A stretch of DNA of 64,000 nt from Platanthera guangdongensis (taxonomy: Eukaryota > Streptophyta > Magnoliopsida > Asparagales > Orchidaceae): assembly GCA_039583875.1 (NCBI GenBank), contig CM077151.1, positions 27,209,940-27,273,939 of the forward strand, given 5' to 3'. Position 1 is the first letter of the stretch. Each line of letters opens with the position of its first letter. The translations under genes were made by a program, and so were the position numbers. Of the stretch, positions 22,854 through 39,450 are shown piece by piece. The notes under the pieces were generated by a model. The model was not told the origin of the DNA. It was given only the letters and a program-made list of their open reading frames with translations, and ran no database searches.

Positions 22854-24902
22854 TGAAAGATATGGTACCTAAACACCTAGAGGGGGGGTGAATAGGTGAC
22901 CTAATCCTTTTCTAACTTTACTAGCAGCAAACAGTTTATTATCACAGATTTTTTCACTTTTGCACAGCAATCACAAAGTATTCACAGCATACACAGCACA
23001 ATCACAGCACAACACAGTGGTTTATAGTGGTTTCCCAAGATATGGGTACATCCACTTTCCCCCTTCGCCTATCTAGCAGTGTACTAGATTTGGCCAAACT
23101 CCTCCACGTCTCAGAACCCAAATTGGTTCTACACCTCAGGCCCAAAGCCTTACAACTCAGCTTTATCCCAAAGCCTACACTCAACCAATCAAGGCCTACA
23201 CTCAGCCAACCAAGGCCTACACTCAGCCAACAAGGCCTACACTCAGAGATCTCAATCTCCTACACTCAGGCTCACAAGCCCTACCATCAGCCTTTATAAA
23301 TATAGGCTTACAATTCACTCAGATCCAAAGGATCCTACAAGTTAAATGTATTACAAATAATAACTCTACAACTCAGAATTAAAGGAGGGGAGTTGAGAGA
23401 TTTTGATGAGTTCTTGGAAGAACTCAGCTGGATTCACCCTGACTTAGCTTTCTTCAAAGCTTCCTGAGTAGAACTGAATAAGACTGAATCCTCTGCAGTT
23501 GTTCCTTGACCTCTGCCACTTAAGATCCAGAATTGAATCTGAATCCTTCTTCTCAGCCTAGTTCCAGAGGCTGATTTTGGATGGAGCCCTCTCTCTCCAA
23601 CTTCTTAGATCTGCACTTGGACTGCAAGATCTTTTGTGTTGATACTCTTGGTACCACTTCAATAATTTGTTTTTCAACAAACTAAACTTTTGAACAACAA
23701 TCTGATCTAGTTGATCTTCAACCCTGCTTTCTGTAAACTGTAGATGCCTATTTATAGGCCTTCTTCATGGTAACCGGCTGATCCGGTTCATAACTGACTT
23801 CTGACATCTCTGACAGTTGCTGTAGACGGCTGGAACGGCAGCTGTCAAGTCATCCAGTCACTTCTTGAAAATCTCTAACTGTCTGTAAGTGTCGAGACTT
23901 TCTGTCTTTAAGTGTCGACACTTATAGTCCAAGTGTCGACACATGTTGTGTAAGTGTCGACACAAGTCTACAAGGTGTCGACACAACTCCTTGTATGTCT
24001 CGACACAGATTCTTCTGCATGTGTCGACACTGAAATTGAGTGTCGACACAAGTACTTGTTCTTCTAGCTTTTGCTGAATTCTTCTAAGTGTCGACACATC
24101 TCCTTTGTGTCGACACAACTTCTTGTGTTGTATCTGTTAAGTGTCGACACTGCTTCTTGGTGTCGACACATAGTCTTCTATGTTGATTCTTGCTGAGTGT
24201 CGACACAGCTCCTTGTGTCGACACTTGATTCTTCTGTTGAGACTTCAGCTGAGTGTCGACACATTCCTTTAGTGTCGACACTTGTACTTAGAATATTTTG
24301 GAAATAATTCTGTTCTTTGCTAAGTGTCGACACAGCTCCTTGTGTCGACACTTTCTTCAAGTGTTGAGTCTTCAGCTGTGTCGACACATTGTTCTGGGTG
24401 TCGACACATACTTCATATGCTGACTCTTCTGTTGAGTGTCGACACATTGTGCTGGGTGTCGACACATGTACTTAGTCTCTGCAGACTTTTGCTGAGTGTC
24501 GACACAGCTCTAAGTGTCGACACTTTCTGGTGTAGACACAGCTTCACTGGGTGTCGACACAGCTCCTTGTGTCGACACTTTCTGTCTGCACTTTTCTTCA
24601 CTGAGTGTCGACACAGCTCCAAGTGTCGACACTTTCTGTCTGGTGTCGACTCTGCATCCCAGGTGTCGACACAATGACTCCAAGTGTCGACACTGCTTGT
24701 CTGGGTGTCGACACAAGCTTTCTTGAGTGTCGACACTTTCCCTCTGGGTGTCGACACATGGACTTAAAAACTTTTTGCTTCAGTCCAGTGATTACTTAAC
24801 CTGCACAAGTAAACTCAACATTCATCAAATACATTATGATGTATATCATTGAGTTGGGTGAGGCTTCTTCAAATCAGGTACATTTGACCAATGTATCAAA
24901 CA
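22854..24902 (-). repeat. Sirevirus-like 3' LTR
   Basis: On the plus strand it runs from TGAAAGATATGGTACC to GTATCAAACA. On the sense (minus) strand the order is U3 with the palindrome array, a TATA box (CCTATAAATAGG, 23758-23747), then R-U5 of about 0.9 kb. The U5 side holds a tandem run of CAAGGCCTACACTCAGCCAA-like units (23160-23245). Confidence 0.92.
23885..24760. repeat. Palindrome array (GTGTCGACAC)n in U3 of the 3' LTR
   Basis: About 30 perfect copies of the 10-bp palindrome GTGTCGACAC, plus several decayed copies such as GTGTTGAGTC and GTGTCGAGAC. Spacing alternates between about 17-20 bp and 35-40 bp. A decayed site often fills the middle of the longer gap, giving an underlying period near 19 bp. 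Spacers are mostly pyrimidine-rich (AGCTCCTT, TTTCTGTC). The array ends about 130 bp before the TATA box on the sense strand. All six frames are largely open, producing false ORFs of Cys-Arg-His or Val-Asp-Thr repeats. Confidence 0.95.
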
Positions 24903-24914
24903 ATCTCCCCCTAT
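24903..24914 (-). promoter_or_regulatory. Polypurine tract of the Sirevirus-like element
   Basis: On the minus strand the run AATAGGGGGAGAT immediately precedes the LTR start TGTTTGATAC, where plus-strand DNA synthesis would be primed. Confidence 0.8.
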
Positions 24915-25199
24915 TTGGAGAAGTCATAACCCTTAGTCAATGATATACACCATTCATAATTAAAAATTACAGAATGATGTAAAGCAGATTATTTACAGCA
25001 GGGTAAACATAAACATGTAATAATTCACACATATATACACATTCATCATTGCAGAACAAACAAGAAATAGACACATTCTCAGAACAATCATGAAATTATT
25101 TATCATATATTGTTCTAACATTTTTCTAATACATTTCAATGGTTTACAAAAATGTTTTTCATTTAAAAGATTACAACAATCTTCAAGTCAATTACTAAT

Positions 25200-28022
25200 C
25201 TATTTCTGATCTGGTTCTTTGATAACTATGCCTTTGCCAGATTGGACTTGAGCTTTGACAGTGGCTTCAGCAGTTTCAGCAACAGCAGGCTTCTTGCCTT
25301 TTAAGTCCTTCTTCTTCAGCTCTTCTGCTTTGATTTTCTGCCTCTCAAAATAGTGGTATGGCTTAGGAAAGTACTTGCTAGGCTCCACTGCAGTAGGAGG
25401 TAGCTTTCCCATCTTTGCCTTCCTTCTATACTGAACTATGACTTCTTGTCTGATCTCATGTTTCCTCCATTCAGCTTCAGAAAACCATTTGTTCCTGTCA
25501 TGAGTATTGTCCTTGGTAGCTTTCCAGACAGTTAAAATGATATTCCTAGAGGTAGGACTCCATTGTTCAAAATCTGGCTTTTGTTCTGCTTGTTCCCTAA
25601 ACCTCTTTTTAGACAGCCTTGTCTCTTCTTCTTTGTTCATAGCCTCTTGCAAAGCTTCAGAAATATGTTGAATAACCTTTTCAATGTGGACATTGTTCTT
25701 GCCCTCAAGTTGGGCTATACATTGTGCTCACATCTGCTTGAATCATTTCAAAGTCTGGAGGTGGATAAATGACCTGAGCTACCTCTGGTTGCTCACCTCC
25801 AAAATAGGCAGGGTTAATGCCTGATTCAGCAACTTCTTGGTCATCACACAGAGGAGGGTATCCAAGTGTAGCCCTGATTGAATTTGATATCCATTTGACA
25901 TGCTTAGAACTTGCCTTGACTAAACTCTCTCCCCTTTATGACTTCTCTAGCCATGTGATCTCTGACATCATTCTTTTGAAATCTGATCTGACTGTCCAAG
26001 TACCTGATCCCATCTTTAAAGTAAGGTTTTAGCTTTTGAAGTTGTTCAGATATGACCTTCTGGGAGGCTTGGATAGCAGTCTGTACAGCAGAAATTTCTT
26101 GTTGAAAGACTTTATCAAAGTTAGCTTTAGCAGCATCAGTAGATGTAGAGGGTTCAGCAGCCTTATTCTTTAATTCAGTGACAATAGCATTGTGGGATTC
26201 AGTCAAATTGTCATTCATTCTTAATTGATTCTCAAGAAATATCCTTGTTTCAATGCTATATCATCCACCTGTGTCTTGATCTTTTCTTGGTGTGTTGCCA
26301 AATACACCACTGCATTTCCACCTTTGTGGAAGCAGTCTGTCATCTCCTTCTTGTTGAGATTCATCTCAAACCTTATAGATTTTATATCTTGGGCAGATCA
26401 AATTGAAGTGATTTCTGCCTTTATCTACATACTTCTCTATTGCCTGCCTTTGCTCATCCAATTTTATCTGTATGTGCAACCATTAATGCACTATAATCAG
26501 CAGTTGGAGCTTGCTGAACTATAGGCAGTGGGCAATGGATTGCAAAGCCTTCTTATAACTCTGGCTTCTCCTCTTGAAGACATAGAGTTTCTTCTTCTTG
26601 CCCTAGCACTCTCCTCATCTTCAGAGACAGAAGTGCTGGCAATATCAACCTGTCCTTAGGGCTTTGAGGCTTCTCAGTTTGCAAATCAGGTGCTTGCTCA
26701 GTTTCCAGCCTAATAGGCTCTTCCAGATCTTGTACTTGCTCCCCTCAGAGCAGCAGCAATATCTCTTTCAGCAGCTTCTTTGTCCATGTCAAAATCAACT
26801 TGATCTAGATTGAGAAATAGATCTTCCATGGTGAATTCAGGGGTGAAGAAGCTGGAGAAGTTCTTGGTTCTTCAACCTCTTGATCAGGAACCACTTCTAG
26901 TACAACAGAGGTGTCTTGGATTACAACATCTGGTTCTTGGCTAGGCTGCTGAGTTTGCTGAGGAACATCAGACAAATCCAACATTTTCTATAAGATATTC
27001 TAAAGTTTTTAGGTCAGTGAGTATCTCTTGGATGATGATGGTGGCTTGCTCACTGTCCAGTGTAGATGACTTTTCTACAACTGGAGGCTCCCCCTGGCTT
27101 TGATCCCTGTGGATGGGGCTAGCCTGTGGTAGCTCCCCCTGGATCTCAGCAATATCTTCAGCAGCAGGGGTCTTCTCTGCAGCCACTTCCTCTGGTCATC
27201 AGGAGTGAAAACAACTTGTTCTTCACTCCTTGAACTGCTGGAGGACTCCTGTGCCACAGCAGCTGTCTTCCTTTTCTTCCTTGGAGGAGAATCTTTCTTA
27301 GTAACTGTCTTCTCTGGGGTAGGCATTTCCTTGGACAACACCCTGTCCCATCTGGAAAATATCTTTTGATCCATCTTCCTCATGTGGTTGATCTTACTTC
27401 CTGCAGCTGGTTCATTACCTCTGGTATGGTACCAGCTAGGTAGAGACTAAGTATTCTGCCCAGGTTGGGCTTCTTCAGACTCTCTTGATCTTGTCAAACA
27501 CTATCATTGACCAATCATTTTAATAGTGAAGATAATTCTTGTCATGATTTCAAAACATGTAGGCAGACACTCTGTCATGCCTCCAGTCTTGCTGAGTAAG
27601 ACTTTTCCTACTATCTCAGACATGAACTTCCCTTGGTTATTCATGCCTTTTCTGTTGAATACAGATCCTATCTTCATCTTAGGATCAAGACCACACCAGG
27701 TTAAAGCTTCCCTGGTCTTTGAAGCAGTACCTCTTCTTCATCTTGAATTTTGGTAGCTGGAGCACCTTCCTCAGATTCTTTTGGTGAAACCTTGCTTAGT
27801 CCCATGAACTCTGGATTTGATTCTGAATCCAGATTCATCGACTGCAGCTCCATTAAGGAATTCAAGCACTTCCTTCTTCCAAATCTTGTAGGTTCAGACA
27901 AAAGATATTTAGTCCAGAATCGGTGACTAGGGTTACTACAGCCTGAATTTTGATCTGCTTCGTCGAACGCGCCGCGCACTAGCTCATAGCCTCGTTAACG
28001 TCTCCTCAAGCTTAGGAGCCAT
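25200..28022 (-). pseudogene. Third ORF of the Sirevirus-like element, frameshifted
   Basis: It begins at an ATG (28022) with MAPKLEETLTRL. One extra base near 27985 shifts it into ELVRGAFDEADQ and FWTKYLLSEPTRFGRRKCLN (near 27900). Later segments: KMKIGSVFNRKGMNNQGKF and IVGKVLLSKTGGMTECLP (27690-27580), RWDRVLSKEMPTPEK, a basic stretch PPRKKRKTAA then a Ser run (27290-27220), an acidic/Gln-rich part, a helical coiled-coil-like part (26200-25930: VQTAIQASQKVISEQLQKLK) and a basic C-terminus ending IKEPDQK at a TAG (25200-25202). Extra ORFs after pol are known in Sireviruses and often called envelope-like. I see no signal peptide or membrane segment, while PPRKKRK looks like a nuclear localisation signal. 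Function unknown. Confidence 0.72.
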
Positions 28023-28048
28023 TAGGGTTTGAAGAATTGTCTTAGAAA

Positions 28049-28492
28049 AGTGAGGGTGTCGATACTGTAGTTTTGGAAGCGTGTCGACAAACAAAGACAG
28101 AACCCTATTTATACCTGTCGATTTTGAAGATGAACAGGGCGACAGCTATCTTAAGATGTGTCGACACTGGCAATAAGTGTCGACACAGACTTATAATGTC
28201 TCGAACACATGTGTCGACACAAGTTTAGTCAACAGATTTTATGTGTCGACACTTGTTTATGTGTCGACACAACATAACTCGACACATTGTCGAGACTTTA
28301 CTTAGTAATTACTGAGTAAAACATAAGTGCCGACACACATTGGATGTGTCGACACCTACTTGACATGTGTCGACACTAACATTCTGAAGTGTCGACACCA
28401 ACATCCTAGATGTGTCGACACCTTTTTCCTGAAGTGTCGACACCACTATTCTGTGTCGACATAGACTTGTCTATGTGTCGACACTTTTTACT
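28049..28492. repeat. Internal palindrome array between pol and the third ORF
   Basis: At least ten perfect GTGTCGACAC copies plus decayed forms (GTGTCGATAC, TGCCGACAC, GTGTCGACAT), spaced about 20-35 bp apart. It is the same motif as in the LTR but with different spacers (AACATTCTGA, ATTCT), so it is not a recent copy of the U3 array. Confidence 0.93.
28103..28115 (-). promoter_or_regulatory. Internal TATA box before the third ORF
   Basis: On the minus strand GGTATAAATAGGG lies just downstream of most of the palindrome array and about 80 bp upstream of the ORF ATG (28022). The LTR has the same arrangement: array, then CCTATAAATAGG. Promoter function is inferred. Confidence 0.6.
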
Positions 28493-28539
28493 TAGTCATT
28501 TTCAAATCTGTAAACTTACTCTAAGTTTATCATTCCTAG

Positions 28540-31500
28540 TTCAATTTTGAATCTATTGAACTTAGCTTCTTCTAGTGGCTTAGTAAACATATCAGCTATT
28601 TGTTCATCTGTTTTAACATATTCTAATTAAAATATTTCTCTTTCTACATGCTCCCTAAGAAAATAATATTTAATCTCAATATGTTTTGTCCTATTATGGG
28701 ATACAGGGTTATTAGCTATTGAAATAGCACTTGTAGAATCACAGAAAAGTGAGTTCTACTTACCTGAAATCCTAGTCCTCTAGCTGATGTTGAATCCACA
28801 GAAGTTGAGCACAGCAACTTCCTGCAGCCACATACTCTGACTCAGCTGTGGAGATAGCCACACTGGTTTGCTTCTTGCTACTCCATGAAATTAGTCTCCC
28901 ACCTAGGAATTGACAGGTTCCAGTAGTGCTCTTTCTATCCTCTTTGCATCCTGCAAAGTCTGCATCTGATAACCTGTTAGATCAAATCTCCATTCCTAGG
29001 GTACCAGAGGCCTAGATAGGGAGTGCCCTTTAGATATCTCATATTCTTTTTGATGCAGTCAAATGAGACTCTTTAGGGCAGGTTGATACCTTGCACAAAC
29101 ACATGTAGCATACTTGATGTTGGTCTACTAGCAGTCAAGTATAATAGGAAGCCAACTATCCCTCTATACAAGGTTTCATCTACAGGTTTCCCTGCATCAT
29201 CCTTGATAAGAGACATACTTGACCCCATAGGAGTCTTCATGGTACTGGATGAATCCATACCATACTTCCTTATGAGTTCTAGGGTGAACTTTGACTGACA
29301 AATGGATAAACCATCTCAGTCTGTTTAACTTGGAGACCAAGAAAAACTTCAGCTCTCCCATACTACTCATCTCAAACTGACATTGCATAAGTTTTGCAAA
29401 CTTTTTGAAAGGCTGCTTTCAGTAGACCCAAATATAATGTCATCTACATATATTTGGACTAGTATGATTTTGCCTCTAGATTCCTAAGGAATAGAGTCTT
29501 ATCTATTTTCCCCTTGAGAACTTGTTCTCAATGAGGAAACTAGATAGGGTTTCATACCAAGCCCTAGGGGTTGCTTTAACCCATATAAAATTTTCTAAGT
29601 CTATAGACATAATGAGGTAGAGTTGGATCAACAAAACCTGAAGGCTGCTCCACATAGACTTCTTCTTTCAAATTACCATTTAGGAATGCTGACTTGACAT
29701 CCATTTGGTACCTTGAATCCTTGATAGGTTGCTTAGGCCAAGAACATTTTATGGCTTCCAGTCTGGCTACTGGAGCAAAGGTTTGATCAAAGTCAATACT
29801 TCTTCTTGCCTATATCCTTTAGCAACCAGTCTAGCTTTATTCTTAATGATGACCCTTGTTTCCATCTTATTCTGTAGATCCACTTAACTCCTATTACATT
29901 GTGGTCTTTAGGTTTAGGAACAAGTTCCAAACCTTGCACCTCTTTGAACTGATTAAGCTTTCTTGCATTGCTTCAGTCCATTGTGGATCTTGTATTGCTT
30001 CTTCAAACTTCTTAGGTTCAACTTGTGACAGAAGGCTGAAATAATTGCAGCATTCATGTTTCTACTCCTGGTTTGTACTCCTTGTCTTGGATCTCCAATA
30101 ATCAGCTCTACTGGATGATCTCTAAGATGCCTGTGAGCTGGAGGCATCCTAACCTCTGGTTGAACCACTTCAGCATCTGTTCATGCTGTACTCCTTGTAT
30201 TTCTTCAGCAACTGGCACATGTAGTTCTCCCCCTGGACAACAGCTACTCTCTTCCTTGCTGTCTTGCAGCAGGCACTTCTTCTATAGTAAGCTTGTCCAT
30301 TTTCTTTGTAAAACTGTGGGGCTGCATACACTGCTAGACAACTCATTATTAATAAGTTTAGTCTCATCAAAAACTACATGCACAGATTCTTCTACAACTT
30401 GTGTAGTCAAGTTGTAGACTCTATAAGCCTTACTATTATTGCTGTACCCAACAAAAATTCCTCTTGGGACTTGTCAGCAAACTTAGTTAAGTAAGACTTC
30501 CCATTGTTAAGTATGAAGCATTTGCAACCAAAGATCTGAAGTAGGATAAGTTTGGTTTCCTGCCTTTCACAACTTCATAGGGGTCTTGTTTAGCCCTTTA
30601 GTGATGGTAGCCCTATTTATAAACTTGGCATGCATGTGTTAACTGCTTCAGCCCAGAAATACTCTGGCAGTGATGTATCACTTAATAGGGTCCTACCAGC
30701 CTCTATCAAGGTCTATTTTCTCTCAGCAATGCCATTTTGCTGAGGTGTTCTAGGTGAAGAGAATTCTTGAAATATCCCAAAGTCTTCACATAGTTTTGTC
30801 ATGCTTTCAGACTGAAAACTCAGTACCATGGTCACTTCTAATCTTGACCACAGTACTATTTAGTTCATTCTGAATTTGCTTGACAAAGCTGTAGAAGACA
30901 CTAGGTGTTTCAGATTTCTGTCTTAAGAAGAACACCAGGAAAACCTTGAGTAGTCATCTACAACTACAAAGGTATAGACCTTCCTACCTAAGCGTGAACT
31001 GGCATTGGACCAAAGAGATCCAATTGCAAGAGGTACAAACACCTCACAGCATCTTTGTTTTCTATGCTTTTAAAGGTGGATTTAGTCTGCTTGCCTTTTG
31101 ACAAGCTGAGCAAATACATCTTTAACACACTTAACTTGAGGACCATTCCTCACCAACTCTTTGCTAAAGAGTTTGCTAATAGTCTTGTAGTTAAGATGGA
31201 CAAGCCTCTTGTGCCATTTGACACAATGAGAGACTGTCTCATCTGCTACAAGACAAACTGGAGAACCATTGTTTCAAACCATAATGTCTAGGCAGTAGAC
31301 ATTCCTCTTCCTATAACCGTCAAAATGATCTCTTGATCACTTGACCTCTTGATATGACACCATTTTAACAAATGAGATGTCTACCCTACATCACTTAATT
31401 GACTTATACTTTTAGGTTGTGTTTCAACCCTTAACATAAGCCACTTGAGTAATGGTAACTAAGTTTGAAGAAATGTTACCAAACCCTTTGATGATTCCTT

Positions 31501-31980
31501 TTTCAGAACCACCAAAGGTCACTTTAGGACCATTTTGATTGGAATGTAGTCCTTCAGTAGTCCCCTTGTTCCAGTCATATGTCTGAACATCCACTATCCA
31601 AGTACCATGTTGGGGTATGGCCACTTGGACTGACCTGCAAAACAAATTAATGAACCTTAGAACCCAAGTATTCTTGGGTCCTTGGTGATTGTTAGTTTGC
31701 AATTTGACAAACCTACCTACTGGCTTTCCAACAGGTAGTTGGAACTCACTTTGGCACTCACATTGTGCCAACAGTCCACTGCAAATGGCCAACTTTGCCA
31801 CAGCACCAGCATTCAAACTTATTGTACCTTTGCTTAGGTACTGCCTTGGCTGTCTTGACTACAGCAGGCTTGTTGAATGTTGGGGCTTTGCCCTTGGACT
31901 TAGACTTGGGACTGCTCAGTCCCTGCAGGTCTAACAAAAACCCAGTCAGCCTTGCCTTTATGATGAACAAATTCATCAAT
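28540..31980 (-). pseudogene. Sirevirus-like pol, broken
   Basis: Domains in order on the minus strand: a second zinc-knuckle-like motif (KFECWCCGKVGHLQW, near 31830), protease (GTWIVD then GPKVTFGGSEKGIIKGFGNI, 31610-31460), integrase in several frames (31300-30450), reverse transcriptase (29900-29070, including FEMSSMGELKFFL and TPMGSSMSLIKDDAGKPVDE then YRGIVGFLLYLTASRPTS) and RNase H (about 28990-28790, with the SKKQTSVAISTAESEYVAA-type motif). Many small indels and stops break the frame. Confidence 0.8.
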
Positions 31981-32484
31981 TAAAGGTAACACTGATTTAG
32001 GTTTTGAAAACCTAGCAACAAGCTCTCTCTCTTTCTGAAGATTGATCTTCAGTCTCTTAATTTGATCATTCTTATGGTGATAGTTCCCATCTGAATCACA
32101 GTAATGTGTTTCAGCCTGGCTACCTCATTCAGTTTTTGATCAAATTGCTTCTCAAATCTGTTGCAGCAGCTTTAAGATCAAATATTTCCTTTGCCTGACT
32201 TTTGGATAGGGTCTTGCTTTTCTTGTAAGCTTGCAACAGTACCTTATATTCATCTATAAGCTGATGAATATCTTCCTCAGACTCAGATATATTTCTACTT
32301 GATGAAGAAGAATCTGATTCTGAACTAGAACAAGAACTGAATTTAAACTTGAACTTAGTACCTGACTGGGGCTGGCTGCTCCAGGATTTTGGCACTCTCT
32401 GTCAAAGTCATTAGCCCTTGGCAATGACTGTCTTCTTGTTCATAAATTGACTCCAAGATCTGCATGAATTCTTCCTCTTCTTCT

Positions 32485-33784: not shown

Positions 33785-35841
33785 TGAAAGATATGGTACC
33801 TAAACACCTAGCGGGGGGGGGTGGGTGAATAGGTGACCTAATCTTTTTTAACTTTAATAGCAGCAAACAGTTTATTATCACAGTTTTTCACTTTTGCACA
33901 GCAATCACAAAGTTTATTCAAAGCATACACAGCACAATCACAGCACAACACAGTGGTTTATAGTGGTCCCCAAGATATGGGTACATCCAACTTTCCCCTT
34001 CGCCTATCTAGCAGTGTACTAGATTTGGACCAAACTCTTCCACTGTCTCAGAAACCAAATTGGTTCCTACACCTCAGGCCCAAAGCCTTACAACTCAGCT
34101 TTATCCCAAAGCCTACACTCAGCCAATCAAGGCCTACACTCAGCCAACCAAGGCCTACACTCAGCCAACAAGGCCTACACTCAGAGATCTCAATCTCCTA
34201 CACTCAGGCTCACAAGCCCTACCCTCAGCCTTTATAATTATAGGCTTACAATTCACTCAGATCCAAAGGATCCTACAAGTTAAAATGTATTACAAATATA
34301 ACTCTACAACTCAGAATTAAAGGAGGGGAGTTGAGAGATTCTTGATGAGTTCTTGGAAGAACTCAGCTGGATTCATCTGACTTAGCTTTCTTCAAAGCTT
34401 CTTGAGTAGAACTGAATAAGACTGAATCCTCTGCAGTTGTTCCTTGACCTCTGCCACTTAAGATCCAGAATTGAATCTGAATCCTTCTTCTCAGCCTAGT
34501 TCCAGAGGCTGATTTCTTGGATGGAGCCCTCTCTCTCCAACTTCTTAGATCTGCACTTGGACTGCAAGATCTTCTTGTGTTGATACTCTTGGTACCACTT
34601 CAATAATTTGTTTTTCAACAAACTAAACTTTTGAACAACAATCTGATCAAGTTGATCTTCAACCCTGCTTTCTGTAAACTGTAGATGCCTATTTATAGGC
34701 CTTCTTCATGGTAACCGGCTGGTCCGGTTTCATAACTGACTTCTGACATCTCTGACAGTTGCTGTAGACCGGCTGGAACGGCAGCTGTCAAGTCATCCAG
34801 TCATTCTTGAAAATCTCTAACTGTCTGTAAGTGTCGAGACTTTCTGTCTTTAAGTGTCGACACTTATAGTCCAAGTGTCGACACATGTTGTGTAAGTGTC
34901 GACACAAGTCTACAAGGTGTCGACACAACTCCTTGTATGTCTCGACACAGATTCTTCTGCATGCATGTCGACACTGAAATTGAGTGTCGACACAAGTACT
35001 TGTTCTTCTAGCTTTTGCTGAATTCTTCTAAGTGTCGACACATCTCCTTTGTGTCGACACACTTCTTGTGTTGAATCTGTTAAGTGTCGACACTGCTCTG
35101 GTGTCGACACATAGTCTTCTATGTTGATTCTTGCTGAGTGTCGACACAGCTCCTTGTGTCGACACTTGATTCTTCTGTTGAGACTTCAGCTGAGTGTCGA
35201 CACATTCCTTTAGTGTCGACACTTGTACTTAGAATATTTTGAAATAATTCTGTTCTTTGCTAAGTGTCGACACAGCTCCTTGTGTCGACACTTTCTTCAA
35301 GTGTTGAGTCTTCAGCTGTGTGTCGACACATTGTTCTGGGTGTCGACACATACTTCATATGCTGACTCTTCTGTTGAGTGTCGACACATTGTGCTGGTGT
35401 CGACACTTGTAACTAGTCTCTGCAGACTTTTGCTGAGTGTCGACACAGCTCTAAGTGTCGACACTTTCTGGTGTAGACACAGCTTCACTGGGTGTCGACA
35501 CAGCTCCTTGTGTCGACACTTTCTGTCTGCACTTTTCTTCACTGAGTGTCGACACAGCTCCAAGTGTCGACACTTTCTGTCTGGTGTCGACTCTGCATCC
35601 CAGGTGTCGACACAATGACTCCAAGTGTCGACACTGCTTGTCTGGGTGTCGACACAAGCTTTCTTGAGTGTCGACACTTTCCCTCTGGGTGTCGACACAT
35701 GGACTTAGAAACTTTTTGCTTCAGTCCAGTGATTACTTAACCTGCACAAGTAAACTCAAATTCATCAAATACATTATGATGTATATCATTGAGTTGGGTG
35801 AGGCTTCTTCAAATCAGGTACATTTGACCAATGTACCAACA
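33785..35841 (-). repeat. Sirevirus-like 5' LTR with palindrome array
   Basis: Near-identical to 22854-24902, with scattered single-base changes and small indels. The palindrome array occupies 34829-35700 and the TATA box (CCTATAAATAGG on the minus strand) 34699-34688. It ends ATGTACCAACA, followed by the GATGG target copy. Confidence 0.92.
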
Positions 35842-36435: not shown

Positions 36436-36450
36436 GTGGTCATCCTTTTT

Positions 36451-36950
36451 NNNNNNNNNNNNNNNNNNNNNNNNNNNNNNNNNNNNNNNNNNNNNNNNNN
36501 NNNNNNNNNNNNNNNNNNNNNNNNNNNNNNNNNNNNNNNNNNNNNNNNNNNNNNNNNNNNNNNNNNNNNNNNNNNNNNNNNNNNNNNNNNNNNNNNNNNN
36601 NNNNNNNNNNNNNNNNNNNNNNNNNNNNNNNNNNNNNNNNNNNNNNNNNNNNNNNNNNNNNNNNNNNNNNNNNNNNNNNNNNNNNNNNNNNNNNNNNNNN
36701 NNNNNNNNNNNNNNNNNNNNNNNNNNNNNNNNNNNNNNNNNNNNNNNNNNNNNNNNNNNNNNNNNNNNNNNNNNNNNNNNNNNNNNNNNNNNNNNNNNNN
36801 NNNNNNNNNNNNNNNNNNNNNNNNNNNNNNNNNNNNNNNNNNNNNNNNNNNNNNNNNNNNNNNNNNNNNNNNNNNNNNNNNNNNNNNNNNNNNNNNNNNN
36901 NNNNNNNNNNNNNNNNNNNNNNNNNNNNNNNNNNNNNNNNNNNNNNNNNN
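36451..36950. other. Assembly gap (500 N)
   Basis: Exactly 500 Ns, the usual placeholder for a gap of unknown size. It removes the 3' end of the copia-3 element, and any host sequence between the two elements. Confidence 0.99.
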
Positions 36951-39450
36951 CTATCCTCCATCCTGAACTTCTTCAAGATCTCCTTTGCATACTATTCTGG
37001 GATATGAAGATCTCATCTTCTCCCTGCTTCACTTCCACTCCCAGGAAGTAGCTCAACTTCTCCCAAGTCTGTCATCTCAAATTTCCTTCTTCATCATGCC
37101 CCGGAACTCCTCATACATAGCAGTATTGTTCCCTGTGAAAATCATGTCGTCCACGTAGAGGGCACACAATCATCAATGCCTCCTCCTGGTCCACCTTGGT
37201 GTAGAGGGCGTGCTCATGCGGGCTCTTCTGATAGCCATGCTTTTGCAAGTAAGCATCTATCCTTCCTTTCCACCTCTCTTGCCCCCTGCTTCAGCCCGTA
37301 GAGTGCTTTGTCTAACTTGCAGACTTTCCTCTCCTGCCCCTCACAACGTACCCTGGGGACTGCTCGATGTACACGTCTTCTTCCAGGTAGCCGTTCAAAT
37401 AAGCCGAGACCACGTCCATCTGCATGATTCTCCACCATGGTGAGCCGCTAGCGCTATGATCAACCGATGGTGTCAACTCGCGTCACGGGGGCAAACACCT
37501 CATCATAGTTCACCGCCTTGGACTTGACGATAACCCTTCACCACTAGCCTGGCCTTGTGCTTCTCCACTCCGCCATCCTTGTTCTTTCTTTACTTTGTAC
37601 ACCCACTTCACCCCGAGGGTTTGTGGCCAGCAGAGGGTCGACCAATTTCCAGGTCTCGTTCTTCTTTATGGAAGCGATCTCCGCATCCATCGCCTTCCTC
37701 CAACTCTTCTCCTTGACAGCTTCATCATAGGAGCACGGCTCGACATCTGCTAATAGACAATACAAAGAAAATTGTTAAGTGTCGGTGCCGTCTCTCCTCA
37801 TATATCTCATCCAGCCTCCGCATCCTGGGCTGGGACGGTAGTCCTTGCTCCCACTGGTGCTTGCTCCTCCAGGGCCGCTTCCACTCGTGCTTGCACCACT
37901 AGAGTAAGGGGTGAGAGCTCCCCCTGAACTTCCGCTTGGTGGTGATGGTGGCTCCGCTCCACCCATCTCCGCTTCGGCCTCTCCTCCACTTCTTCTTCAT
38001 CATCCTCGAAAAACATTCCCTTGATGTTCTTCACCGCCTCATCCCAGCTCCAGCAGCTTCCTTCTTCAAATACCACATCTCGTGAGATGATGGCTTTCTC
38101 TGTCTCAGGATTGTATAACTTGTAAGCCTTGCTCGCAGGAGCGTAGCCCACAAAAATACACTTTTCACTTCGATCGTCCAGCTTCTTTCTCCTTTGGTCT
38201 GGGACGTGGGCATATGCCACGCACCCGAAGACCCTCAGGTGCTTCACACTTGGCTTCCAACCACTCCAAGCCTCAAACGGTGTCTTGAACTTCACACTCT
38301 TGTAGGGCACCGATTCAGCACGTACACAGCCACCTGTACTGCTTCCGCTCAGAACTTCTTTGGTAGTCCCTTACCCTTTTACCATACTCCGTGTCATGTT
38401 CATGATTGTGAGATTCTTCCTTTCTGCCACGCCATTCTGCTGAGGCGAGTAGGCCGCCGTCAGCTGATGAGAGATTCCCCATTGCCTACAGTACTCGTCG
38501 AACAGCCTAGAGGTGTACTCCCCACCTCTATCCGTTCTAAGTACTTTCAGAGGTTGACTACTCTCCTTCTCAGCCATCGCCCGAAACTCCTTGAACTTCT
38601 CCAGCGCCTCAGCCTTCTCCTTCAGAAATACACCCAACACTTTTCTGCTGAAGTCGTCGGTGAATGTGATGTAGTACTTGCTTCCACCGATTGAAGTTGT
38701 TTCAAATGGACCAGCAATGTCCGAGTGAACCAACTCCAATGGCCTTGTCGCCCTTCGGGACTTGCCACCCTCAAATGTCTTCTTCTCTGCTTCCCCTTGG
38801 TGCATGCCTCACAGACCCTATGAGGAGGTGTGATCATCGGCAGCTCTTCCACCATCTTGATCCAGACAACAACTTCAGGCCTGTGAAACCCCAGATGCCC
38901 CCATCCGGTGGTGCCACAACCAAGCTTCTCTTCTTCTTCATTCCTCGCGAGACATGTCGTCTCCTTTACATCCATGCTCAAAGTGAAGAGACGGTTCGCC
39001 GTCATCTTTACCCTCACTACTTCTTTCCCATGACCGTCCTTCATGGCCAGGGTGTCATCCAGCAACAAGACCGGTAGCCCTTCTCCACTAGCTGCCCAGG
39101 CTTAGGATGTTACTCCTCAAACACGGCACTATAAAGACGTCGTTGATGAGAACCTCCTTCCCACTCAACACGACCGCCACAACTCCTCTTCTTCTACTGC
39201 AATCTTTGAGGCGTCGCCGAAGCTCACCTCACCACCATTTGGCTCAAGGCTCGTAAACAGCTCCTTCTCTCTCCGCACATGTGGTTGTTGGCCCCGGTGG
39301 TCTAAGTACCACACTCCATTCCTTCCGCCTCCAGCACCTTGGACCGTAAGGAACATCATCGGGTCGCTCCCGTGTTGCTCGTCTCCGCATAGTGTTTGGC
39401 CTCTCCTCCTTCCGAGGAGCCCAACAATCATAGCTCATGTGCCCGAACTT
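36951..39450 (-). pseudogene. copia-3 pol, broken and cut by the gap
   Basis: Protease region (about 39330-39170) with WYLDHRGQQPHV then FTSLEPNGGEVSFGDASKIA, slightly shifted from the usual DTGANNHM. Pre-integrase zinc finger with GHLGFHRPEV and CEACTKGKQ. Integrase core (38780-38371) with LVHSDIAGPFE, TFTDDFSRK, LRTDRGGEYTS and SPQQNGVAERKN, the DDE residues being visible. Integrase C-terminus HLRVFGCVAYAHVP. RT from WRKAMDAEIASIKKNETWKL to KVCKLDKALYGLKQG. Small frameshifts separate the parts. Confidence 0.85.

Follow-up and report, generated by a model that had tools for sequence, protein, structure and literature searches.

A conserved TATA box and palindromic boxes form a candidate internal promoter upstream of the third open reading frame of an orchid Sirevirus-type retrotransposon

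In the genome of the orchid Platanthera guangdongensis, a module located between pol and the third open reading frame (ORF3) of a Sirevirus-type retrotransposon combines an array of palindromic boxes, a TATA box and the ORF3 start codon, in an order which is retained in most of the copies sampled. The module is probably an internal RNA polymerase II promoter for a separate ORF3 mRNA, with boxes that would share the factor of the LTR array and a transcription start predicted over the box at +23 of the TATA box. The anatomy of the element, its conservation, the purifying selection acting on ORF3 and, in three families, the agreement of LTR and module boxes were observed directly; transcription, its start position, the factor involved and any response to stress are deduced.

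The window is a stretch of 64,000 nucleotides, in which the element occupies 12,988 bp on the minus strand (35841-22854). The 5' LTR (33785..35841, minus strand) comprises 2,057 bp and adjoins a CCATC target-site duplication; the 3' LTR (22854..24902, minus strand) comprises 2,049 bp, is followed by CCATC and is directly preceded by the Sirevirus-type PPT AGGGGGAGAT. The pair diverges by a K2P distance of 0.0119, and its alignment contains 24 substitutions versus 36 gap columns. The reading frames of the element are broken at several places, and some of the indels in this copy may be assembly errors. A stretch of N is present at about 36440-36966, with 500 N in the window overall.

Several features known for Sireviruses were identified in the element. 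For the PPT, described as AGGGGGAG with an AT/TG attachment site at the 3' LTR, AATAGGGGGAGAT was found abutting the TG of the LTR. The PBS junction, for which CA-A(T/G)TGG-TATCAGAGC is characteristic, reads CA-AGTGG-TATCAGAGG with a different final base, and the poly-C integrase signal was recognized by eye as CACCTATTCACCC...CTAGGTG close to both LTR ends. A gag fragment matches the copia-type family PF14223. The RM box of Sireviruses is a palindrome that is repeated at least eight times within the LTR, ahead of the TATA box, and here each LTR carries 35 boxes of the sequence GTGTCGACAC. Additional copies 5' of the env-like ORF were found in 51/51 copies of the element. The CGG-CCG core signature is absent from GTGTCGACAC, which is treated as a variant of the RM box, like that of Tnd-1.

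With at most one mismatch, GTGTCGACAC occurs 85 times in the window versus 1.16 times expected; a count of 85 was reached in 0 of 100 shuffles. The boxes are divided into 35 in the 5' LTR (34831..35698, minus strand), 35 in the 3' LTR (23889..24757, minus strand) and 15 internal ones. In both LTRs TATAAATAGG is found as TATA box (34688..34697, after the array of the 5' LTR, and 23747..23756 in the 3' LTR, both on the minus strand). Genome-wide, GTGTCGACAC was counted 2,076,908 times versus 2,228 times for the reversed control, an extreme load presumably spread by retrotransposons. An unrelated LTR (L010 and L011, about 300-1400) also bears GTGTCGACAC, within a repeat whose unit measures about 103 bp; read from its end GTGGGGGAGAGTTGTAACACC, it is apparently of the Ty3/gypsy type, and it was set aside. 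Two unrelated groups of elements may use one host factor. A reading of the GTCGAC core of the box as a site of the DREB/CBF type found no confirmation in the paper examined, and it was not retained. An array of three boxes was absent from the viral contigs searched.

The pol gene ends with a TAA stop codon (28516..28518, minus strand) after ...GMINLE, and the ORF3 region follows at the env-like position (25200..28022, minus strand). In between, 15 boxes (11 of them exact) are located at 28056-28484. Of these, 13 with at most one mismatch form the array upstream of the TATA box (28158..28484, minus strand), and two are located downstream of it, in the leader: one at +23 of the TATA box (28081..28090, minus strand), which would lie over the transcription start, and one with a single mismatch (28056..28065, minus strand). 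The internal TATA box is TATAAATAGG (28104..28113, minus strand), and the ORF3 ATG (28020..28022, minus strand), to which a start in other copies corresponds, is preceded by AAACCCTA. The A of the ATG lies 91 nt from the first T of the TATA box, and 81 nt separate the two motifs. The original prediction of an array, a TATA box and an ATG about 80 bp further on agrees with these positions within a few bases. The occurrence of TATAAATA in the 136-nt leader by chance was observed in 0.15% of 2,000 dinucleotide shuffles. TATAAATAGG is also found once within pol by coding (30612-30621, minus strand), and given this occurrence the motif alone is weak evidence. In the window copy the frame from the ORF3 ATG closes after 12 codons.

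Further copies were sampled by a coding pattern at the end of pol, which is blind to the module. It matched 14,485 times (7,275 + 7,210) in the assembly of 4,245,561,818 bases over which the genome-wide counts were taken, versus 0 times for the reversed control. The sample consisted of the 30 first-listed copies, 20 copies picked for diverse anchors among the other 70 listed, and the window copy; the sampled copies are all from one contig (C1), and the window is from another (C5). The array and TATAAATA were present in 30/30 of the first-listed copies. Overall, the array was identified in 50/50 sampled copies and TATAAAT in 49/50, which with the window included amounts to 51/51 and 50/51; the lone exception, L048, has AATAAATA. 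By chance TATAAAT was found in 0.5% of shuffles (10/1,960) and, in the sequence following the ATG, in 0.9% per 140 nt. The 50 TATA-bearing segments of 280 nt represent 17 lineages at 12% divergence, with a mean between-lineage identity of 0.68 and a minimum of 0.50. Since the segments were cut at TATAAAT, with L048 left out, the invariance of the TATA box within them arises by construction and its rank partly so, and 50/51 is the meaningful figure.

The distance from the first T of the TATA box to the ATG was 104-111 nt in 46/50 copies. In three others it was 115, 98 and 91 nt, the last being the window copy; in L036 the ORF3 ATG is absent from the expected range, which counts against the promoter reading. 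A conserved TATA box with a fixed spacing to the ATG, as expected for an internal RNA polymerase II promoter, was found in this way, and the comparison proposed with the original prediction, that of the array-TATA-ATG order across family members, came out in its favor. The end of pol and the TATA box are separated by a variable 147-386 nt in 47 copies, L041 and L061 being omitted from this comparison and from that of the CpG content below. When one mismatch is allowed, a box begins 53-58 nt upstream of the TATA box in 48/49 copies, and further boxes begin 22-24 nt downstream of the first TATA base in 35/49 and 60-64 nt downstream of it in 40/49. The absence of the +23 box at one mismatch from 14/49 copies also counts against a promoter. 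Genome-wide, TATAAATAGG followed by TGTCGACA 11-14 nt further on was found 21,958 times (11,104 + 10,854) versus 3 times in the control; among the 100 matches listed, the spacing was 14 nt in all 100, and the intervening letters differ.

The module is also distinguished by its CpG content, with a median observed/expected ratio of 1.10 versus 0.21 in the start of ORF3 and a higher value in 46/47 copies. In the window the ratio is 0.01 in pol (28500-32000), 0.08 in ORF3 (24910-28022) and 0.74-1.11 in the arrays. Considered as a possible readout of methylation, the CpG in the box center carries C>T or the mirror change in 25 of 239 one-off variants. The CpG content of the module would be in accordance with an epigenetic or RNA-structure feature, such as a CpG-rich island, a hairpin, a small-RNA target or an RNA dimerisation site, in which the TATA box is incidental, and the part of PMC10760457 on maize Sireviruses describes small RNAs in excess on their palindrome-rich parts. 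However, neither the retention of the TATA box in 50/51 copies nor the placing of boxes at about -56, +23 and +62 from it would be predicted by such a feature, which is very unlikely to explain the module.

For a comparison with the LTR promoter, we analyzed 10 stretches taken where the 3' LTRs of other copies were expected. A box array was identified in 8 of them, and 7 also have a TATA box (L069 and L071 have no array, and L072 has no TATA box near its array). In the seven elements the TATA box lies 131-179 nt after the last box of the array and varies in sequence, with TATATAAAGG, TATATAAATAC, TATAAATAGA and similar versions, whereas the internal TATA box follows a box after about 56 nt and is near-invariant. 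Beyond boxes and TATA, nothing alignable between LTR and module was seen in the window copy. Since the LTR TATA boxes vary, the LTR promoter and the candidate internal one are distinct; judged by their sequences, the two modules have the boxes in common, but not the core.

These data bear on the possibility that the module was copied from the LTR promoter, or that gene conversion maintains the similarity of the two, with no selection acting on promoter function. This would account for the identical boxes in both places, which are matched in three families. However, the spacers are unalignable, the TATA context in the LTR differs and its sequence varies by lineage while the internal one hardly does, and the array ends 131-179 nt before the LTR TATA box (7 elements) versus about 56 nt for the internal one (48/49 copies). 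The explanation is already disfavored, and we give it hardly any weight. The unalignable spacers and the differing TATA contexts also led us to reject a recent duplication from the LTR as the source of the internal array, as had been anticipated. The identity of TATAAATAGG in LTR and module, a further part of the original prediction, did not prove to be general, since the seven other LTRs have TATATAAAGG, TATATAAATAC, TATAAATAGA and the like; with LTR TATA boxes this variable, their identity with the internal one was rejected as a mark of common origin.

Three families with private boxes were compared in the genome, with one or two elements each and eight stretches in the cross-count. In family 1, represented by the window copy, TGTCGACA was counted 31 times in the LTR part and 13 times internally. 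In family 2, ACTCGAGT is present 23 times in the LTR part (L088) and 12 times in the internal array (L089). In family 3, the LTR parts L110 and L111 both contain TCGTCGA/TCGACGA 14 times, and the internal parts L096 and L105 contain it 9 and 10 times. No cross-occurrence of boxes between families was found in the eight stretches compared. We infer from the spacing that the LTR part and the internal part belong to one element. The box changes in both places and the layout stays, as predicted by a shared trans-acting factor, and the matching fits one such factor per family, which would serve both promoters. In the table of boxes published in 2010, the linker and the LTR of each element have one box in common (PMC2829016), which is consistent with a shared factor.

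The elements of families 2 and 3 were obtained from a PBS-based search, in which 7 CAATTGG elements were sampled first, one of them (L088/L089) clearly a box-bearing Sirevirus. Among 20 further stretches, L096 and L105 belong to family 3 and L092 to family 2; L093 contains TCTCGAGA six times near the expected internal position, with no pol end, and in the remainder no clear array accompanied by a pol end was seen. In L013 (1200-2000), GTGTCGACAC is mixed with an array of the TCGACGAA type, possibly in an element with two box types. L079 contains a 16-fold repeat of ATTGGTCG near the expected internal position, which was not seen in its LTR part. Both L013 and L079 may be exceptions to the private matching of boxes.

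Two observations on the other families count against the promoter reading: in family 2 the TATA box is present only as a TA-run about 150 nt before the ATG, and in the LTR parts of family 3 examined no TATA[AT]A[AT] was found. In both family 3 copies, an acceptor-like sequence consisting of a pyrimidine tract and TGCAG is located directly before the ORF3 ATG (L096:534; L105, minus strand). This would be expected if an LTR-initiated RNA were spliced to give the template for ORF3 translation, a route proposed for BAGY2 and Athila, whose predicted acceptors are cited in PMC2829016, with the internal array serving another role. A P. zijinensis gene model (P0005) joining RT and ORF3 points in the same direction, the intron across the module being deduced from the protein. 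In family 1, however, a scan of the acceptor side identified YAG after a pyrimidine tract in 14/49 leaders, mostly 39-42 nt past the TATA box and away from the ATG, and splicing leaves the conserved TATA box at a fixed ATG distance unexplained. Splicing may occur in family 3; overall, we consider it an unlikely route to ORF3 expression, and an internal promoter the probable one.

ORF3 itself is under purifying selection. The frame from its ATG is open for at least 240 and at least 257 codons in L009 and L012, and the median dN/dS was 0.10 at a median dS of 1.3. These values were derived from 324 of 528 pairs with dS >0.15, pairs with dS <=0.15 or not computable being left out; the pairs are non-independent, and at least L017 is apparently shifted near codon 47. 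The set comprised the 33 of 50 copies in which the first 55 codons are open, and 17 with no signature start followed by 55 open codons were dropped. In the window ORF3 is frame-broken; the N-terminal part in other copies of family 1 and in family 2 shows a distant resemblance to PF20167 (Transposase_32) below the curated cut-off, and the ORF3 piece of family 3 gave no match in Pfam. Pieces of ORF3 have matches among the proteins of both Platanthera zijinensis and P. guangdongensis. The ORF3s of family 1 and family 2 are homologous with 32% identity over 219 residues, those of families 1 and 3 with 25% over 146, and between families 2 and 3 the match is only weak.

Conceivably, ORF3 encodes a DNA-binding protein by which the element regulates itself, either activating transcription or counteracting silencing. 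This protein would bind the private boxes of the LTR and of its own promoter, and the box over the predicted start would make the circuit self-limiting; we regard this as rather improbable. If it were true, box and protein would co-evolve by family, in a circuit in a plant copia element resembling that of foamy viruses or VANC. Four ENV-less elements in the box survey of PMC2829016 also bear boxes in their LTRs, so LTR boxes do not need an ORF3 in the same element; this weakens a self-encoded regulator, but not the internal promoter.

In the proposed mechanism for the internal promoter, the palindromic boxes upstream of the TATA box and those near +23 and +62 would be bound by the trans-acting factor of the LTR array. 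Transcription set by the TATA box would begin about 30 nt further on, where the +23 box lies, resulting in a short leader which ends at the ORF3 ATG and in a separate ORF3 mRNA made by RNA polymerase II. A plant TATA box places the start about where the +23 box lies, and the box may therefore overlap the initiator. The original prediction that ORF3 has its own internal promoter under LTR-like control was strengthened by the conservation of the array (51/51), the TATA box (50/51) and the mostly fixed ATG distance and by the box matching in three families, with transcription as the deduced part. The claims of TATA identity and of the absence of any equivalent in Sireviruses that came with it had to be given up.

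The latter claim is contradicted by Bousios et al. (2010), in whose sections on these boxes palindromes were reported for 13/21 Sireviruses and were characterized as CpG-rich (PMC2829016). In nine boxed Sireviruses with ENV, boxes were present in the linker, 77/79 of them upstream of ENV; six other ENV-containing Sireviruses had no boxes. An internal promoter was discussed and supported there with reference to a hypothesis from 2002, and none was conclusively identified (PMC2829016). In the corresponding part of the MASiVEdb paper, stop-codon suppression and an internal promoter are given as expression mechanisms, citing others; the passage on internal promoters in PMC6696364 concerns non-LTR elements. 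No report of a core promoter for a Sirevirus third gene, and none on spliced envelope transcripts of Sireviruses, was found in the literature searched, which was covered by titles and abstract openings and included few subscription journals. New here is the conserved candidate core promoter, with its TATA box at a fixed ATG distance; boxes upstream of ENV and the idea of an internal promoter were known before.

Like the Sirevirus RM described in PMC2829016, the orchid element has many CpG-rich palindromic boxes upstream of the LTR TATA box and further copies of this box in the stretch that separates pol from the env-like gene. Unlike in most of them, the boxes have a TCGA core and lack CGG-CCG, for which Tnd-1 is one exception given in that description; a Vitis box, CGGTCGACCG, has the GTCGAC core in common with those found here (PMC2829016). 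In contrast to the RM as described there, the TATA box is conserved at a fixed ATG distance, and boxes are also present downstream of it. SIRE1 of soybean also carries a third ORF after pol. However, SIRE1 uses stop-codon suppression, as cited in PMC2829016, whereas here the pol stop is followed by a noncoding module of about 500 nt.

Two further systems serve as analogies only. In foamy viruses, one regulator is described as acting on both the LTR and the internal promoter; these are, however, vertebrate retroviruses with a virus-encoded regulator, whereas the factor of the orchid element is a deduced one. In the anti-silencing system of VANDAL elements of Arabidopsis, fast-diverging tandem noncoding repeats are described as bound by an element-encoded protein. 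VANDALs are DNA transposons, with known VANC proteins, whereas a comparable protein of the orchid element would be hypothetical.

Sireviruses are very abundant in some plants. For their third gene, a precise candidate promoter consisting of a TATA box, a predicted start and boxes is now defined in a host with thousands of copies, and the family-by-family matching of LTR and internal boxes offers a route to the trans-acting factor.
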